Below, one piece after another: positions 1 to 7,825 of a stretch of 40,211 bases of DNA. Both the position numbers and the translations under genes were made by a program. Source of the stretch: Chryseobacterium sp. Its GTDB lineage: Bacteria; Bacteroidota; Bacteroidia; Flavobacteriales; Weeksellaceae. Every line of letters starts with the position of its first letter. Position 1 is the stretch's first letter. A model generated the notes under the pieces. The model was not told where the DNA came from and made no database searches. It saw nothing but the letters and a program-made list of their open reading frames with translations. The stretch is taken from NCBI RefSeq assembly GCF_022712095.1, contig NZ_JALAHD010000175.1:1-40211 (forward strand). Reading direction: 5' to 3'.

Positions 1-85
1 GATACTAAATTAAATATTTACATAAATATACACTAAAAAATTAAAATACAACAAAAATCATTCAACTTTAGCAGTAAAATAAAAA

Positions 86-111
86 AAATACTCACTAATT
101 TGTGAGTATTT
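86..111. repeat. Perfect 10-bp inverted repeat AAATACTCAC-N6-GTGAGTATTT overlapping the -33 element
   Basis: Direct sequence reading; arms 86-95 and 102-111. Confidence 0.85.
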
Positions 112-129
112 AAAAATTATATATATTTG
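99..129 (+). promoter_or_regulatory. Putative Bacteroidetes-type promoter (TTTG at 99-102, 19 nt spacer, TATATTTG at 122-129)
   Basis: Matches the TTTG-N19-TAnnTTTG consensus about 50 nt upstream of the first gene of the block. Confidence 0.65.
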
Positions 130-175
130 CAAAGTATTTATTAAAACATTTACACCAACACCAAACCATCACATA

Positions 176-895
176 ATGAACAGAAAAAAAATCCTGACTA
201 TAGCAGTCTTTGCTATAATGTCTACATCCTGTTATTCCCAGGTGGGAATTAACACTCGGGATCCCCAACAAGCTTTGCACATCTCCGGCACAGGTACAGG
301 AACTTCACAAGCCACTATGAGAATTGAAGGTTTAAATAGCCAGAACAATCCAGCTCATGAAGATGCCAGTTCCTCAAAAAGAGTCTTTTCAGACTCGAAC
401 GGATCTTTTGTGATTGCCAGAAATGATCAGGTTAACAAGTCCTATTTAATTACTCCACTTCCAAATACCTCAGTATCAGGCGGAACAGAACAACTAGTTA
501 CCACTCAGTCATTTATACTAGAATATCCGTCCATAGTACATATTGAAGCAAGAGTAGGCATGTCCATTACAGACCATATTTCAACAGAAGCAGATCTGAA
601 AGACGGGCAGGCAAGATTATTTGGAAGTTATTACAAATTTTCTTCAGCTCCTTCCAGTGTCCTTTCCAACACTTCATTCGGACAAACTATTATTTCTCAT
701 TCCACCAATACCGAAGAGGCTCAATTGGATGGCGTATTTTATATTGAACCCAGAAAAGACCTTTCCCTTCCAAAGGGTAGTTACACCATCGCGTTATATG
801 GCTATTCTCAGGACAATAAGCTGAATTTTGCCGTCAATAGTCTCAACCAAACCTCACAACAAATGGCTATAAGCATCACCCCCTTAAGCTACTAA
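176..895 (+). CDS. Secreted protein of unknown function, paralogue 1 (VGINTRDPQQALHISG motif)
   Basis: ORF with signal peptide (MNRKKILTIAVFAIMSTSCYSQ) and a QVGINT..PQ.ALH.SG motif shared with the next two ORFs. Confidence 0.85.
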   Translation: MNRKKILTIAVFAIMSTSCYSQVGINTRDPQQALHISGTGTGTSQATMRIEGLNSQNNPAHEDASSSKRVFSDSNGSFVIARNDQVNKSYLITPLPNTSVSGGTEQLVTTQSFILEYPSIVHIEARVGMSITDHISTEADLKDGQARLFGSYYKFSSAPSSVLSNTSFGQTIISHSTNTEEAQLDGVFYIEPRKDLSLPKGSYTIALYGYSQDNKLNFAVNSLNQTSQQMAISITPLSY

Positions 896-914
896 ACCAC
901 CACCAATCATAAAT

Positions 915-1691
915 ATGAAAAATTTACTTCTAAGCACTCTGGTGCTTGGCGCCAATAGCCTGTGCGCGCAAGTGGGAATTTCCACAACTTCCCCTCAGAA
1001 AGCTCTTCATGTTTCGGGAACAACTTCTTCAGCTAACATTAGCGGAACTTCTATAGATGTTGTAAACCCAACCATCAGAATTGATGGATTGAATAATGCC
1101 AATCAGTCCATACAAGACAAATTACGACCTGTGTCGGTAACCGATCAGGGAGATGTGGTTCTTTCCCATCTACCAGCCAAATCATTACTCTTTATTGATC
1201 CTATTAATTCTTCTAATCCCGAACAAGACTATATTCCATCTGCTGTAACAATCAACCAAACCTCCCCGGCAACCAGTACAAACCTCACTATCAGATCTTT
1301 CAACTTTAGCCTTACCTCTCCCAGTATTGTTAAATTTAATACCGTTACAAGTTTTCAGTTTCTGAAAGCCTCTGATGGCACTCCAATCACAGATGGCTCC
1401 AATAGAACATGGGGCACCAGGTTCAGATTTTCCCAGGCACCTTCAGGAATTTCCACTGCACAAAATTCATTTTTCGGGGAATCAATACGGGCTTACAGCA
1501 ATATAGTCGATACCACAGCAGCATCTGGTCTATTTTATACGGTATCCGATGATACTTTATACCTCCCAAAAGGTAATTACACATTAGACATTAACCTTTT
1601 TGCAGGAACAGAATCTACACAAACACCTTTAAGGCTAGTTTATGGAGGCGGCACAGACACCGTCAGTATCATTGCATATCCTGTACAATAA
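915..1691 (+). CDS. Secreted protein of unknown function, paralogue 2
   Basis: ORF with signal peptide; QVGISTTSPQKALHVSG motif; C-terminal YGGGTDTVSIIAYPVQ resembles paralogue 3. Confidence 0.85.
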   Translation: MKNLLLSTLVLGANSLCAQVGISTTSPQKALHVSGTTSSANISGTSIDVVNPTIRIDGLNNANQSIQDKLRPVSVTDQGDVVLSHLPAKSLLFIDPINSSNPEQDYIPSAVTINQTSPATSTNLTIRSFNFSLTSPSIVKFNTVTSFQFLKASDGTPITDGSNRTWGTRFRFSQAPSGISTAQNSFFGESIRAYSNIVDTTAASGLFYTVSDDTLYLPKGNYTLDINLFAGTESTQTPLRLVYGGGTDTVSIIAYPVQ

Positions 1692-1715
1692 ATTTCAACG
1701 TCAAAATTATTCATC

Positions 1716-2510
1716 GTGAAAAACACAATAAAAATAATATACTTTCTAGGTATTCTAATGAGTTCCCCTATTTTCTCACAGCAATATATGGGAATCATGA
1801 CGGAAAACCCGAAAGCCCCACTGCATGTTAGCGGACCTGTCTCTGTCTCCAGCACCCAGATCGGGGATACCAATATCACATTAGTTACTCCCACAATAAG
1901 AATAGACGGTCTCAATATGAGCAACAATCCAACTGTTTTTACCAGCAGTAATACAACCAATCCATTATATGTCAACAGCAATGGAGACCTTTCCGTAAAG
2001 AAGGGAATAGAAATTTTCGGAACTTATACTCTTCCGGGTAGCGATGCTATTACAACCAGCACCACATTAAATGTAACTGCTAATGAAACCTATCAGGTTA
2101 CAGGTGATTTATTGAGTACTACTTTCACCCTCCAGCACAGATCAATGGTTTATATATCCTCCAGCCTTTCCGCAGAAATACAAAGTTCTACAGGAGATGT
2201 TATTACAGATGGAAAAGCCAGATCTATTGCTGCGGTTATATTATTTACTGCAGCTCCTGCCTCCAGTAATATTGTAGTTAATTCCAGCTATATGAGTGAC
2301 GGTATTACTTATTCAAACAGAAGGTCTGCTTCTTTGAACCGTTCTTTCACACTATGCCCGACTTCGGAAGTACTTCTTCCTCCCGGAACTTATACAGTTG
2401 CATTAAGAGGAGCAGGGATAGCAGGAAACAATTCCCCAGCCGAAAACTTCCGTGTAATATGGGGTGGAGGAAGTAATGATAAATTGAACATACTAGCAAA
2501 ACCATTATAA
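1716..2510 (+). CDS. Secreted protein of unknown function, paralogue 3 (GTG start)
   Basis: ORF with signal peptide; MGIMTENPKAPLHVSG and WGGGSNDKLNILAKPL motifs parallel paralogue 2; starts with GTG 25 nt after the previous stop. Confidence 0.8.
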   Translation: MKNTIKIIYFLGILMSSPIFSQQYMGIMTENPKAPLHVSGPVSVSSTQIGDTNITLVTPTIRIDGLNMSNNPTVFTSSNTTNPLYVNSNGDLSVKKGIEIFGTYTLPGSDAITTSTTLNVTANETYQVTGDLLSTTFTLQHRSMVYISSSLSAEIQSSTGDVITDGKARSIAAVILFTAAPASSNIVVNSSYMSDGITYSNRRSASLNRSFTLCPTSEVLLPPGTYTVALRGAGIAGNNSPAENFRVIWGGGSNDKLNILAKPL

Positions 2511-2537
2511 TTTTTTTTAACACAATACACTTATATT

Positions 2538-2711
2538 ATGAAAAATCTGAATGAAAAATTAGCCCAATTCTCAATCGAGAAACTTGAAGAACGTAAAGAG
2601 TTTACTTTCTATTGCAATCCTAAGCCAGGATGTCACCCTAAACCAACTCCGCCAGATGGTAATAACAATCAGGGAACTGACCCAGGAAATGGTGGCGGTG
2701 TAATAAATTAA
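2538..2711 (+). CDS. Small peptide, 57 aa, putative RiPP/natural-product precursor A: MKNLNEKLAQFSIEKLEERKEFTFYCNPKPGCHPKPTPPDGNNNQGTDPGNGGGVIN
   Basis: Translated by hand; absent from the ORF track (<60 aa); near-identical tandem copy downstream differing only synonymously over the first 40 codons. Confidence 0.75.
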   Translation: MKNLNEKLAQFSIEKLEERKEFTFYCNPKPGCHPKPTPPDGNNNQGTDPGNGGGVIN

Positions 2712-2753
2712 TTCATCCCTTTAAATCTTTTTTAACTTAATACAATTAACAAT

Positions 2754-2933
2754 ATGAAAAATTTAAACGAAAAATTAGCCCAATTCTCAATCGAGAAACT
2801 TGAAGAACGTAAAGAGTTTACTTTTTATTGCAACCCTAAGCCAGGATGTCACCCTAAACCAACTCCGCCAGATTGCAATACCAATCCAGGGACTGATCCA
2901 GGAACCGGAGGTGGAGGATTAAGAAACCTCTAA
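2754..2933 (+). CDS. Small peptide, 59 aa, putative RiPP/natural-product precursor B: MKNLNEKLAQFSIEKLEERKEFTFYCNPKPGCHPKPTPPDCNTNPGTDPGTGGGGLRNL
   Basis: Translated by hand; tandem paralogue of 2538-2711 with identical residues 1-40 and a diverged C-terminus. Confidence 0.75.
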   Translation: MKNLNEKLAQFSIEKLEERKEFTFYCNPKPGCHPKPTPPDCNTNPGTDPGTGGGGLRNL

Positions 2934-2942
2934 TATTATCTA

Positions 2943-2975
2943 AAAAGTACCCGGGTAATGATCTCGGGTACTTTT
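2943..2975 (+). terminator. Hairpin AAAAGTACCCG-N11-CGGGTACTTTT, intrinsic terminator or attenuator between peptide genes and enzyme genes
   Basis: 11-bp perfect arms 2943-2953 and 2965-2975, the right arm ending in TTTT. Confidence 0.75.
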
Positions 2976-3000
2976 CATCTTGAAGAATTATCTATTAGCT

Positions 3001-3810
3001 ATGAATAAACCATCACAATATTTTTTCAGGAATCAAACTGATTTTTTAAAGGAAAATTTCGTTATTGACAATGAAACATTACTTAAAGAATTCAATTCTT
3101 CCGTAGAGCATTTTTGTTTTTTCACTTTGGAAATGGATAAAATCATTGACAATGATTATAATTATCCACAAATGTATGAGAATAATACAAACACTCCCTA
3201 TTTAGCAATAAAAAGTCACATGAAGTCCGTAAAAGGACTTTCAAAGATCTTTCCGGACGATCATTTATTCTGGAAAATTCTTGATGACCACCAGCTTCAG
3301 TATTATTCAGGTCTTTTGAAAGAAAAGTTTGACTCCAGACAGCAAACATTATTCACACTTCAAAATTTTGAAGAATACGCGGTCAACAAGCACTGTCTTG
3401 CTTATATTCCAATATTAGGTATGGACTTTCTCTTTACCTCTAAAGAATCTGCAGACAATCTAGTGGACATTCACACCTCACTGTTTAAAGCAATCCAGAT
3501 GAATGATGATATTGAAGACTTCCAAACTGATCTGGTCAATAAACAATGGACCTATGCTCATTCACAAGTACATGATTTTATTATTAAAAATAATTTATCC
3601 AACACCAGCAATCTGGATCGGTTTGAAGAAAGGGTTTTGTATGTTTCCGGAATTGCTTCAGAACTAGCACATTACAGCAGAGAAAACTTTATGATTGCCA
3701 GAAATAAAGCTCAGAAATGTAATTTTCAAAAAATAGCATCTTGGCTGGATGAAGTATTATCTCAAATGGATGAAAATATAAAACTGATAGAAAATCTCGT
3801 TACCTCTTAA
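3001..3810 (+). CDS. Putative class I isoprenoid-synthase-like, all-alpha protein; the TTG at 2980 in the ORF track is probably not the start
   Basis: Helix-rich protein with acidic motif QMNDDIEDFQTD resembling prenyl/terpene synthase Asp-rich motifs; ATG at 3001 lies clear of the hairpin. Confidence 0.5.
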   Translation: MNKPSQYFFRNQTDFLKENFVIDNETLLKEFNSSVEHFCFFTLEMDKIIDNDYNYPQMYENNTNTPYLAIKSHMKSVKGLSKIFPDDHLFWKILDDHQLQYYSGLLKEKFDSRQQTLFTLQNFEEYAVNKHCLAYIPILGMDFLFTSKESADNLVDIHTSLFKAIQMNDDIEDFQTDLVNKQWTYAHSQVHDFIIKNNLSNTSNLDRFEERVLYVSGIASELAHYSRENFMIARNKAQKCNFQKIASWLDEVLSQMDENIKLIENLVTS

Positions 3811-3813
3811 ACT

Positions 3814-4971
3814 ATGTCTTTAATCCGAACCGATTATATCATTTCTCCTTATTCTGCGGAACAATCAATATTAGAAATTTCCGGAGATTATTTTACCATC
3901 AATACAGATGCTAAAAAACTGATTGAAATCTTATCTGTGTCAAAAAATTACCAGGAGGCTACTCATATTTTTAACTCTGACTTTCAAAATATAAACCTTA
4001 ATGAAAATGAATTTATTCGTTTCATAGAAAATATTTTTGCCGAAATTCCTATTTTCAATAGCTCTTCATTGGAGGTCAAGAAAACGAAAAGTTTTATTAA
4101 ATTTCAGAGAACACTGTTAAGCCCTTCTATAGCCAGCCAATTGGCAAATTGTATACTATTCCTTTTTAATAAGAAAGTATTCTGGATTATTTTTCCAGTT
4201 TTATTTATATCAGGAATCTTCACTATCATTGCTACTCCTGTCCCTTATAAAAACATTTCTCCACTATGGATTTTTGTTTTTTATACCCTAAGTATTTTTT
4301 TTCATGAGCTGGGACATATTGCAGCCTGTAAAAAATATACCCGACAAAATGGTGAAATCGGCTTTGGAATTTATTTTTTATTTCCTGTTCTGTATTCCAA
4401 TATTTCCGCCATATGGCACGGCAGCAAGGAAGAAAGGATCATTACCAATCTGGCAGGAATTTATATGCAATTATGGTGTATGCTGTGTTTCTATGTCGCT
4501 TATTGGTTCACCCAAAATGAAACTGCACTTTTTCTTACTTATTTTACTGCTGTTTACTGTATTATACAGATTTTTCCTTTTATCAGATCCGATGGATACT
4601 GGTTATTATCAGATATCTCCTCTACTTCCAATTTATTAGGAAAATCCGGAAAAGAAGTAAAGCTGTTTATCAAACATCCTCTGCAATGGCTGCGGGAAAA
4701 AAGAGAGAAAAAAATCTTCCTTTTGATATACGGACTTTTCAACACTTTGATACTCACCTATTTTATTGTCTATCAGGTACTGTTCCATTGGAAAGATATT
4801 CTTTATTTTCCAATAACCGTATTGGATATCCTTAAACTGATTTTCACCTTACAGTTCAGTCATATCTCATTACCAGATCATTTTATCGTGACATCAGTTT
4901 TTTATCTGCTTTTATTCACTCAAATCAAAAATCTTTTCAGTAGGTTTTCACAAAAAAAAGAGACTGCTTAA
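3814..4971 (+). CDS. M50/site-2-protease-like membrane peptidase with possible PqqD/RRE-like N-terminus
   Basis: HELGH motif in a TM context (FFHELGHIAACKKYT), downstream SDGYWLLSD, multiple TM helices; N-terminal ~90 aa soluble domain; starts 4 nt after previous stop. Confidence 0.7.
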   Translation: MSLIRTDYIISPYSAEQSILEISGDYFTINTDAKKLIEILSVSKNYQEATHIFNSDFQNINLNENEFIRFIENIFAEIPIFNSSSLEVKKTKSFIKFQRTLLSPSIASQLANCILFLFNKKVFWIIFPVLFISGIFTIIATPVPYKNISPLWIFVFYTLSIFFHELGHIAACKKYTRQNGEIGFGIYFLFPVLYSNISAIWHGSKEERIITNLAGIYMQLWCMLCFYVAYWFTQNETALFLTYFTAVYCIIQIFPFIRSDGYWLLSDISSTSNLLGKSGKEVKLFIKHPLQWLREKREKKIFLLIYGLFNTLILTYFIVYQVLFHWKDILYFPITVLDILKLIFTLQFSHISLPDHFIVTSVFYLLLFTQIKNLFSRFSQKKETA

Positions 4972-4981
4972 AGCAGTCTCT
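4959..4981. terminator. Bidirectional terminator AGAGACTGCT-TAA-AGCAGTCTCT between convergent genes
   Basis: 10-bp perfect arms; the loop TAA is the stop codon of the M50-like gene. Confidence 0.8.
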
Positions 4982-4987
4982 GGTTAT

Positions 4988-7825
4988 TTATTTGATGATC
5001 ATTTTCTGAATGGCAATTCCATTATCCGATTTTAAGTGAACCCAATAGGTTCCCGATGGATAATTTATTCTCTTTTCGTAAGCTCCTTCTTTATCCTTCA
5101 ATGTAAAGGAATCAATTTGTCTTCCTCCCATATTGTATATAGTGATTTTTCCATTGTTCACTTTATGATAAATGAATTTTGCCGTTCCATTTTTCACCGG
5201 ATTTTCTGCAATCTGAAGTGAAAATTTATTTTCTGTATTTTCGTCTACTACAGATAAACTTCCTGTATAATTTCCAAAAATCTTAAATTCTCCGGGAGCC
5301 AAAGTAATAGGTGCCGTAGCAGATGTAATATTGGAAATTGTATTGTCCATTAGGTTTTTCCATTGCCCCGTATAAGGAAAGTAAGGAATTACATTTTGAG
5401 TAGAGGTATCATAATTGGCAATCACGACAATATTCTTCACTCCGTTTGTAATCGAATCATCATAAACATAGATTCTGGTAATCAAACCGTTCGGGTCATT
5501 AGTAAGATTATTAGATTCTACGGTATATGTCTTAGACCGGAATACAGGATATGTATTTCTGATATTAATGATCTGCGCCCAGGTGTCATATATTGATTTT
5601 CTATTGATATCCGTATCATATCCTAAAGTAAATGCTACCGGCTTTTCATCTGTTCTGCATCCACTGTTAACAGAACCGTCTGCACATCGATTAATACTGA
5701 ATTCATATCCCAGTTCTCCGAACTGCCATATCATTTTAGGTCCCGGTATTGTAAAGAAAGTTGCACCGAAGGTTTTCATTCTATCCAAAGCTGTATTAAG
5801 GTTTTTCACATCATAAGTCCCATTCACAGCTCCATAAGCAAGATTTTTAAACATAAGCCTTTCTTCATCATGACTTTCTCCATAACCTACCGCATGCATA
5901 TTGGTAAAACCATGAAGTTCATGATCCATTCTGTCATAACTGCTATTTTCTTTATACCCCATAGTATTTTGATTATAGGGGTCGGTCTGCTTATTCCACA
6001 ACATTACACCTTTTCCTTCTGCTATTTTATAATTAGCCCACTGCTGCTCTTCAGCATCAGTTCCTAAATGTTCAAAAATCATATAGGAAGTGGGATCAAT
6101 TGTCCATTGCTTATCTGCATAATATTTGAGGATATCTACTCTATCCTGTTGATAAGTATTAGTACAGGTTTCATCTGTTTCCGTACAGTTCTGGGTAAAT
6201 CCTTTAGTCAAATCCCATCGAAAACCATCTATCTTATATTCTGTCAGCCAGTGTTCCAATGTCCTTTCTACATAATATTGGGTAGCTGTACTGGTATGGT
6301 TAAAATCATTAAATACATTATATGAATGTTTGGGAACCTGATTGAAGTAAGGATTATTTGGGGCCACATCTCCATATCCGTCATAGTCCGGATCAATATT
6401 CCAAAGCCTGGCTAAAGGGGATCTTCCAGTTGCATGATTAAATGCAATATCCAAAATAACTGCAATTCCATTCTGATGACAAACATCTACAAATTCTTTA
6501 AATTTTTCAGGAGTTCCGTACGCTTTGTCTATAGCATAATGAAATGAGGTATTGTAACCCCACGATAAATTTCCTTCAAACTCCATGATAGGAAGGAGCT
6601 CAACCGCATTGATATTTAAGTTTTTTAAATATAAAATTTTATCAATCAGGGATTGCCAGTTTTTCTCCTGTGTAAAGTCCCTTAATAATAATTCATAAAC
6701 TACCAGGTTTTCTTTATCTGGTCTTTGAAAATTGGCAACCTGCCAGCTATAAGGAGATTGTCCTGTCCGGAACATTGAAACTTCAAAATCCTGACCGGCA
6801 GGAAAGGCCGGTAAATTCGGATAAGTAGAAGCTGAGATCCATTGGTCATCATAAGAAGATAAAATCTGAGGTGAAAAAGGGTCCGCTACTTTTCTCAGAT
6901 CATTAGTCCTATACTGAAATGTATACAATTGTGCCGGTGTTAATCCACTTAGTTCAATCCAATATAAATCGGGATTTGCTGTATCCCTTTTCATTAAATA
7001 TGAGTCATCAACAGTCCAGTTGTTAAAACTACCAATCACATGAATAAAGTCCTTAAAAGGAGCATATAAAGCTAATCCTACTTTTGTATTATCAGTCGGA
7101 TGATAATTAATTCCCTGTCTTATCCAGCCGGGAACAGATTCGGAAATAACAGTTCTTGGAATCTGTAAGATGAATGTTGAATTTTTTGAATTTGAATTGG
7201 TATCTGTAGCAATTAATTCCATATTAGCGTCTGCACTGACTGTATAAGAATACGCATAAGATGTTGATGGCACTAAAGTAGAGTTAACAACTGTTCCATT
7301 AGCTTTCAACTGAAAAGTGGCATTAACATTCGTAGCTGCTGTAATAGATATTGTATTTCCTTGAGATACTGATGTTAAACTATTCGCTAAAGGACTGGTC
7401 AGTGTTACACTCAATATGCCGACATTGACAAATACATCAGAAGTCTGATGACTTCCGTTTTTATCTTTCAGTAAAAAGCCAAATCTTCCCATTCCGGTTC
7501 TGTTAAAAAATACAGAGGGCGTAAAGGTAATGGAATAAGAATCCGTTCCTGAGTTATACGTAAGTTTATTCTGATCATTGGAATCATTCCAGCTTCCATT
7601 GGAGGGGCAATCCATACTATTCCCATAATTGGAGTCAAGTGACCATGACCATACATAAACAGCATTATTAGTAATTCCCCATGCATTTTCATCTATCTGA
7701 TCACCGGGAATAGTTAAGGTAATCTGATCTGTTTCATTGAATGGATTGGGATTAATGGTGTAGTTGATCTGTCCAAATAAAAGGGTCGCCAGAAAAACTA
7801 AAATTCCAGAGTAAATTTTTTCCAT
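4988..7825 (-). CDS. Secreted alpha-amylase family (GH13) protein with T9SS type A sorting domain
   Basis: Signal peptide; CBM48-like region (FIHVIGSFNNWTVDDSY); GH13 motifs DGFRWDL, YMIFEHLG, GESHDEERL; C-terminal YPSGTYWVHLKSDNGIAIQKMIIK. Confidence 0.92.
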   Translation of the reverse strand: MEKIYSGILVFLATLLFGQINYTINPNPFNETDQITLTIPGDQIDENAWGITNNAVYVWSWSLDSNYGNSMDCPSNGSWNDSNDQNKLTYNSGTDSYSITFTPSVFFNRTGMGRFGFLLKDKNGSHQTSDVFVNVGILSVTLTSPLANSLTSVSQGNTISITAATNVNATFQLKANGTVVNSTLVPSTSYAYSYTVSADANMELIATDTNSNSKNSTFILQIPRTVISESVPGWIRQGINYHPTDNTKVGLALYAPFKDFIHVIGSFNNWTVDDSYLMKRDTANPDLYWIELSGLTPAQLYTFQYRTNDLRKVADPFSPQILSSYDDQWISASTYPNLPAFPAGQDFEVSMFRTGQSPYSWQVANFQRPDKENLVVYELLLRDFTQEKNWQSLIDKILYLKNLNINAVELLPIMEFEGNLSWGYNTSFHYAIDKAYGTPEKFKEFVDVCHQNGIAVILDIAFNHATGRSPLARLWNIDPDYDGYGDVAPNNPYFNQVPKHSYNVFNDFNHTSTATQYYVERTLEHWLTEYKIDGFRWDLTKGFTQNCTETDETCTNTYQQDRVDILKYYADKQWTIDPTSYMIFEHLGTDAEEQQWANYKIAEGKGVMLWNKQTDPYNQNTMGYKENSSYDRMDHELHGFTNMHAVGYGESHDEERLMFKNLAYGAVNGTYDVKNLNTALDRMKTFGATFFTIPGPKMIWQFGELGYEFSINRCADGSVNSGCRTDEKPVAFTLGYDTDINRKSIYDTWAQIINIRNTYPVFRSKTYTVESNNLTNDPNGLITRIYVYDDSITNGVKNIVVIANYDTSTQNVIPYFPYTGQWKNLMDNTISNITSATAPITLAPGEFKIFGNYTGSLSVVDENTENKFSLQIAENPVKNGTAKFIYHKVNNGKITIYNMGGRQIDSFTLKDKEGAYEKRINYPSGTYWVHLKSDNGIAIQKMIIK

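Follow-up and report, generated by a model that had tools for sequence, protein, structure and literature searches.

A tandem pair of small-peptide genes in Chryseobacterium as probable precursors of a prenylated RiPP

Results

What do two small tandem genes in a Chryseobacterium genome encode? We read them as the precursor genes of a prenylated RiPP (a ribosomally synthesised and post-translationally modified peptide), in which a prenyltransferase-like enzyme would modify the peptides before an M50 protease cleaves them; the chemistry is inferred, and we give the reading as a whole a probability of roughly 0.75. The genes lie in a window of 40,211 nucleotides (the whole stretch analysed; contig NZ_JALAHD010000175.1, assembly GCF_022712095.1), within an operon of seven genes on one strand with gaps of 3 to 67 nt. 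Its order is three secreted paralogues, precursor A, precursor B, a hairpin, a 269-aa enzyme and an M50 protease:

99..129, + strand: possible promoter of the operon, read from the sequence (TTTG, 19 nt, TATATTTG)
176..895, + strand: secreted protein 1, 239 aa, with a signal peptide and a QVGINTxxPQxALHISG motif
915..1691, + strand: secreted protein 2, 258 aa, paralogue of 1
1716..2510, + strand: secreted protein 3, 264 aa, starting with GTG, a paralogue of both 1 and 2
2538..2711, + strand: precursor peptide A, 57 aa; the leader spans about residues 1-21 and the core starts at Phe22
2754..2933, + strand: precursor peptide B, 59 aa, front as in A, different tail, third Cys
2943..2975, + strand: hairpin that separates the precursor genes from the enzyme genes, perhaps a partial terminator (-18.9 kcal/mol, z -3.9)
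3001..3810, + strand: candidate stand-alone peptide prenyltransferase, 269 aa (D46xxxD50, K130-H131, Q166xxDDxxDxxxD177)
3814..4971, + strand: M50 intramembrane metalloprotease, 385 aa, with a putative N-terminal RiPP recognition element (RRE) at about residues 1-80 (3814-4053)
4959..4981, no strand assigned: terminator hairpin at the operon end, its T run suiting the convergent gene at 4988-7825

The elements at 99..129 fit TTTG/TAnnTTTG, which we take to be the Bacteroidota promoter type. Function-level annotation of the operon is nearly blank in Pfam, NCBIfam and PADLOC: none of the three had an informative hit for the peptides, the 269-aa enzyme or the secreted proteins, and Rfam had no hit at all over positions 1-5100.

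Tandem precursor genes under selection

Are the two short reading frames genuine genes? The first-pass annotation had proposed them as a tandem pair that the ORF track missed, and both lie exactly where it placed them and are real tandem genes. They form a 170-nt direct repeat with 89% identity, spaced 215-216 nt apart, and the proposed extension of the repeat upstream of the ORFs was borne out by a further 32-nt repeat (2502-2533 and 2717-2748, 78%). Residues 1-40 of A and B are indeed identical, and the five substitutions that separate their codons, in four positions (L4, CTG/TTA; N5; F24; N27), are all synonymous, an outcome with a probability of about 3e-4 in the absence of selection, given some 19% synonymous sites. 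The C-terminal tails differ as described, the third Cys of copy B being C41. Because synonymous substitutions, too, are denser in the tail (8 over 11.7 sites, versus 5 over 23 sites in codons 1-40), the near-identity of the front may partly reflect gene conversion or a recent partial duplication and not selection alone. Selection on the peptide, the point that the annotation had drawn from the A/B comparison, is shown independently of it by homologues across Chryseobacterium: over the 15 codons up to a conserved Tyr, pS is 0.72 and pN 0.03, while pN reaches 0.38 in the next six core codons. A strongly constrained leader with a variable core, as seen in these codons, is the pattern of RiPP precursors.

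Two of the earlier descriptions needed adjustment. The conserved leader and diverging tail are both present; the true leader, however, probably stops near Glu21, which makes residues 22-40 of that conserved stretch part of the core. The Pro/Lys repeat is no signature of the family, whose invariant core feature is instead F-x-x-Tyr directly after the leader. The leader motif of the family is F-x-[VIM]-E-x-L-E-x-R-x-E, and that of the window peptides ends ...FSIEKLEERKE. A double-Gly leader is missing from the precursors, as had been observed, and so, on reading the sequence, is a signal peptide.

How widespread are these peptides? The first-pass annotation had tied its claim to homologous small ORFs in related genomes; these occur in 15 of 299 family genomes, so the claim is not refuted, and the view that A and B are encoded by small tandem genes under selection is supported. 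Homologues were found in other Chryseobacterium species, Empedobacter, Algoriella and Algibacter. With the peptide in that many family genomes and the gene for the 269-aa type of enzyme in 13 of the 175 from Chryseobacterium, the system is patchily distributed. The precursor adjoins the same two enzyme genes in the loci examined. A first scan of genome contigs with the protease as query gave no matches; a phylum search and a contig scan placed the precursor–enzyme–protease trio also in Flavobacterium, Tenacibaculum, Apibacter, Algibacter, Candidatus Symbiothrix and others.

Precursor copy number differs between species, from one in most loci to two (the window and L077), three (L074) or six (L136). 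The six tandem copies of L136, in another Chryseobacterium (3615-4872), include three that are identical from the leader end onward and one that has no Cys yet keeps the Tyr. One of the two copies in L077 (8877-9119) looks degenerate, with an altered leader and a different tail, which suggests turnover of precursor copies.

Small size and high-identity tandem repetition would also be expected of a chance or noncoding repeat, a reading to which we attach practically no weight; it is already refuted, since many species have homologues in frame, with E as low as 1e-19, and purifying selection is strong. The peptides might instead be ordinary unmodified secreted peptides, a bacteriocin or a signal, that lie beside unrelated genes by chance: they are small, tandem and Cys-containing, and their tails vary. 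Yet they have neither a signal peptide nor a double-Gly leader, and a gene trio with the same leader motif recurs in several genera, which makes this account very improbable. Double-glycine bacteriocins, lanthipeptides and epipeptides were rejected as identities because their enzymes are absent. We have little doubt that the two ORFs are RiPP precursors.

A stand-alone enzyme of isoprenoid synthase fold

What could the 269-aa protein do to such peptides? Its AlphaFold2 model (pLDDT 92.7) is all-helical and has the trans-isoprenyl diphosphate synthase (trans-IDS) fold; its PDB fold matches are isoprenoid synthases, with TM-scores up to 0.73 (a GGPP synthase), and it aligns to Ord1, a Trp farnesyltransferase, with a TM-score of 0.66. 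The invariant residues include D46, D50, K130, Q166, D169, D170, D173 and D177, an Asp layout that corresponds to the two Asp-rich motifs of trans-isoprenyl diphosphate synthases, except that the first motif is DxxxD, not DDxxD. The Gln just before the second motif is present, as Q166 in QxxDD, and over this second motif a profile matches a trans-hexaprenyltransferase. Homologues of 570-740 aa join an N-terminal part with a weak resemblance to polyprenyl_synt to a C-terminal part resembling SQHop_cyclase_C, and several carry a DIDD motif and QW repeats. The enzyme profile also matches two prenyl-synthase-like proteins outside such loci (L130 and L131). In one genome of g21, an Empedobacter-like genus, a stop and a frame change break the prenyltransferase-fold gene (L086, 9560-10359), and the precursor and protease are still there.

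Because ordinary prenyl synthases have the same fold and motifs, and because the known acceptor Trp is absent, the enzyme might make a free prenyl diphosphate or terpene, or serve as a noncatalytic binding partner, with the peptides modified otherwise (e.g., by disulfides only). We regard this as improbable: the enzyme is constantly linked to precursors, its metal-binding Asp residues are invariant, and its fused relatives are established peptide-modifying enzymes according to a review (PMC13290415). That a prenyltransferase acts on these peptides is, by contrast, a well-favored conclusion.

An intramembrane protease with a predicted recognition element

The second enzyme has HELGH (HExxH) and DGYW motifs that are invariant in 18 relatives. 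Peptidase_M50 matched the window protease at E 6.5e-5, below the Pfam cut-off, and matched 18 of 18 relatives. The nearest NCBIfam models are those of epipeptide and daptide proteases, both also below cut-off (scores of 88 bits against an equivalog threshold of 300, and of 62 against 225). A model of residues 1-100 (three strands and three helices, pLDDT 79) has as its top PDB matches the RRE domains of TbiB1, ThcOx, LynD-type heterocyclases, PqqD, TruD and McbB; the matches are weak (Foldseek E 0.014 at best, TM about 0.5). Pfam gave no PqqD match at this N terminus, and the likeness emerged by structure only. We conclude from the predicted structure that the region is an RRE, which would bind the leader. 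M50 proteases occur in epipeptide and pearlin pathways (PMC10885120), and leader cleavage by this one is likely. A link between an RRE-M50 protease and lipidated peptides would explain why an intramembrane protease acts on precursors that have no membrane segment.

Which residue is the acceptor?

The characterised peptide prenyltransferases of trans-IDS fold all act on Trp (2026 review, PMC13290415), and the Gln before the second Asp-rich motif has been linked to Trp recognition (PMC13290415). Precursors encoded with fused prenyltransferase–cyclase enzymes contain Trp in all 37 motif-matched cases, and in 35 of these the Trp lies no more than 12 residues past the leader, in agreement with what the review says of ChrPC. 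The window enzyme is one of 16 stand-alone enzymes that group in a single clade (support 100/98) and have no cyclase domain; no such domain was found in the operon or in the rest of the window genome (94.65% complete). Neither A nor B has a Trp, and the clade precursors have no conserved one: 6 of 26 distinct sequences contain any Trp, and none has it at the leader end (those of L079-L082, in the same clade, end in Trp). What is fixed is a Tyr four residues after the leader Glu, in 26/26 distinct sequences, at a position within the range of the Trp positions of the fused systems. Since these Trp-less precursors are unlike their known relatives, the attachment site has probably changed; Q166, the Gln type tied to Trp recognition, is kept, and the change is therefore not plainly written in the active site.

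We favor Tyr25 as the acceptor, at close to an even chance, because no other nucleophile is invariant and its position is that of the acceptor Trp in related systems. A Cys (C26 or another) is the other candidate, and the product would then be an S-prenylated peptide comparable to the yeast a-factor. Eukaryotic protein prenylation usually falls on thiols (PMC13290415), and a Cys, mostly directly after the Tyr, is found in 25 of the 26 distinct clade precursors. However, its position shifts (TVKNC in L079-L082, FNYAQC in L107), and one of the six L136 copies (EFTYYGYSKP) lacks it, while the Tyr never moves; a Cys acceptor is thus rather unlikely.

Do the enzymes carry a matching change? Clade-wide differences are K130-H131 (elsewhere mostly K-S or K-A), F162 and M167; these share one origin, and their match with Tyr precursors therefore counts once. 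It would be too simple to treat Trp loss as a consequence of the loss of the cyclase domain, an explanation we rejected on account of two Hymenobacter plasmids (L137, NZ_CP040937.1, 4902-7229; L138, NZ_CP053909.1, 4758-7354). Each encodes a stand-alone enzyme of prenyltransferase fold together with an M50 protease and a short precursor that contains Trp, in genes annotated as hypothetical proteins. Their enzymes are neighbors of the window clade and keep K-S, so the lack of Trp tracks the K-H clade and not stand-alone enzymes generally. That the clade enzyme is the first trans-IDS-fold peptide prenyltransferase to act on a non-Trp residue (Tyr25, by position), with His131 part of the change, is a tentative proposal. 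A distant stand-alone enzyme without His131 (L125, 627-4221) accompanies Cys-rich precursors with a core of LSCYC and no Trp near the leader, possibly a second, independent acceptor change.

Discussion

How might the operon work? Precursors would first be made in excess over the enzymes, because the hairpin separating them from the downstream genes would raise precursor RNA above enzyme RNA. Such a hairpin is predicted in 12 of 12 loci compared and folds clearly better than shuffles in all of them except L079. The leader (...FSIEKLEERKE) would be bound by the RRE at the protease N terminus, and the 269-aa protein would move an isoprenyl chain (C10-C20) from its diphosphate onto an early core residue, most likely Tyr25 and, second, Cys26. 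The lipid tail would take the peptide to the membrane, where the M50 protease would cut near Glu21/Phe22. More speculatively, the tailed Pro/Cys/Gly-rich peptide would end up at or outside the cell surface with the operon's three secreted proteins.

The order of the three secreted paralogues is conserved in L073-L078, and L135 has them too. Three other secreted proteins adjoin the trio in Empedobacter and Algoriella, and a large cadherin/Ig-type protein follows it in the Leaf394/404 group. The operon itself has no transporter; in Candidatus Symbiothrix (L120, 7202-10515), genes for an HlyD adaptor and for an ABC transporter with a C39 peptidase lie next to those for precursor and enzyme, which gives a clue to export.

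If the proposal is true, flavobacteria display or release tyrosine-prenylated Pro/Cys/Gly-rich peptides that are processed by an RRE-equipped intramembrane protease and made alongside a set of secreted proteins. A clade whose precursors have no conserved Trp but a fixed Tyr, and whose enzymes share a few changes near the active site, is a natural experiment on acceptor choice, and its enzymes are a possible source of Tyr- or Cys-lipidating tools for peptide engineering.

How does the system compare with those already described? The general kind, a RiPP with a trans-IDS-like prenyltransferase, is known. As far as the literature shows (Hubrich et al. 2024 through a review only), we found no description of a clade of stand-alone enzymes that is paired with Trp-less precursors and an RRE-M50 protease. 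The closest likeness is to ChrPC-type RiPPs, which, according to that review (PMC13290415, on Hubrich et al. 2024, doi 10.1016/j.chempr.2024.07.026), pair a precursor peptide with an enzyme whose trans-IDS-like P domain prenylates an internal peptide Trp from C10-C20 donors and whose C domain cyclises the prenyl chain. The fused loci that we recovered have the ChrPC architecture (polyprenyl_synt plus squalene-hopene cyclase) and share the leader motif and the M50 protease with the window. In contrast, the window has no C (cyclase) domain and its precursors no Trp, and its clade has K-H, F162 and M167.

Some of the fused loci (L121, L124, L126, L128 and L090) also have a radical SAM gene, so the peptides there may carry a second modification. 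A Tenacibaculum locus (L112, 6665-13117) encodes two fused-type enzymes, three precursors and a 691-aa M50 protein. A secreted protein of 280-400 aa is often present, in several cases with a CarboxypepD_reg-like domain; in L113, L123 and L121, genes for secreted proteins of 278-396 aa adjoin the enzyme.

Among stand-alone enzymes, ComQ/ComX (the Bacillus pheromone system) likewise places an isoprenoid-synthase-fold enzyme beside a small precursor. ComX, however, is modified on Trp, which the window precursors lack; ComQ has the first Asp-rich motif only (PMC10853753), whereas the window enzyme has the second; and the window operon has no counterpart of the ComP kinase and ComA regulator pair of ComQXPA. 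PalQ/PalX of Paenibacillus alvei also uses a stand-alone trans-IDS-like RiPP prenyltransferase (PMC10853753), but with a required terminal Trp and an NHLP leader, neither of which is found in the window precursors. The M50 proteases of epipeptides (YydH/EpeP, LiaK) and daptides are related intramembrane metalloproteases in RiPP operons (PMC10885120); the window protease differs in scoring far below their equivalog cut-offs and in its N-terminal RRE, and its operon has no radical SAM or aminotransferase gene. Finally, cyanobactin prenyltransferases (PirF and others) prenylate Tyr of ribosomal peptides (PMC13290415), the chemistry predicted here, but they do so with an ABBA-type fold, whereas the window enzyme has the all-helical trans-IDS fold.
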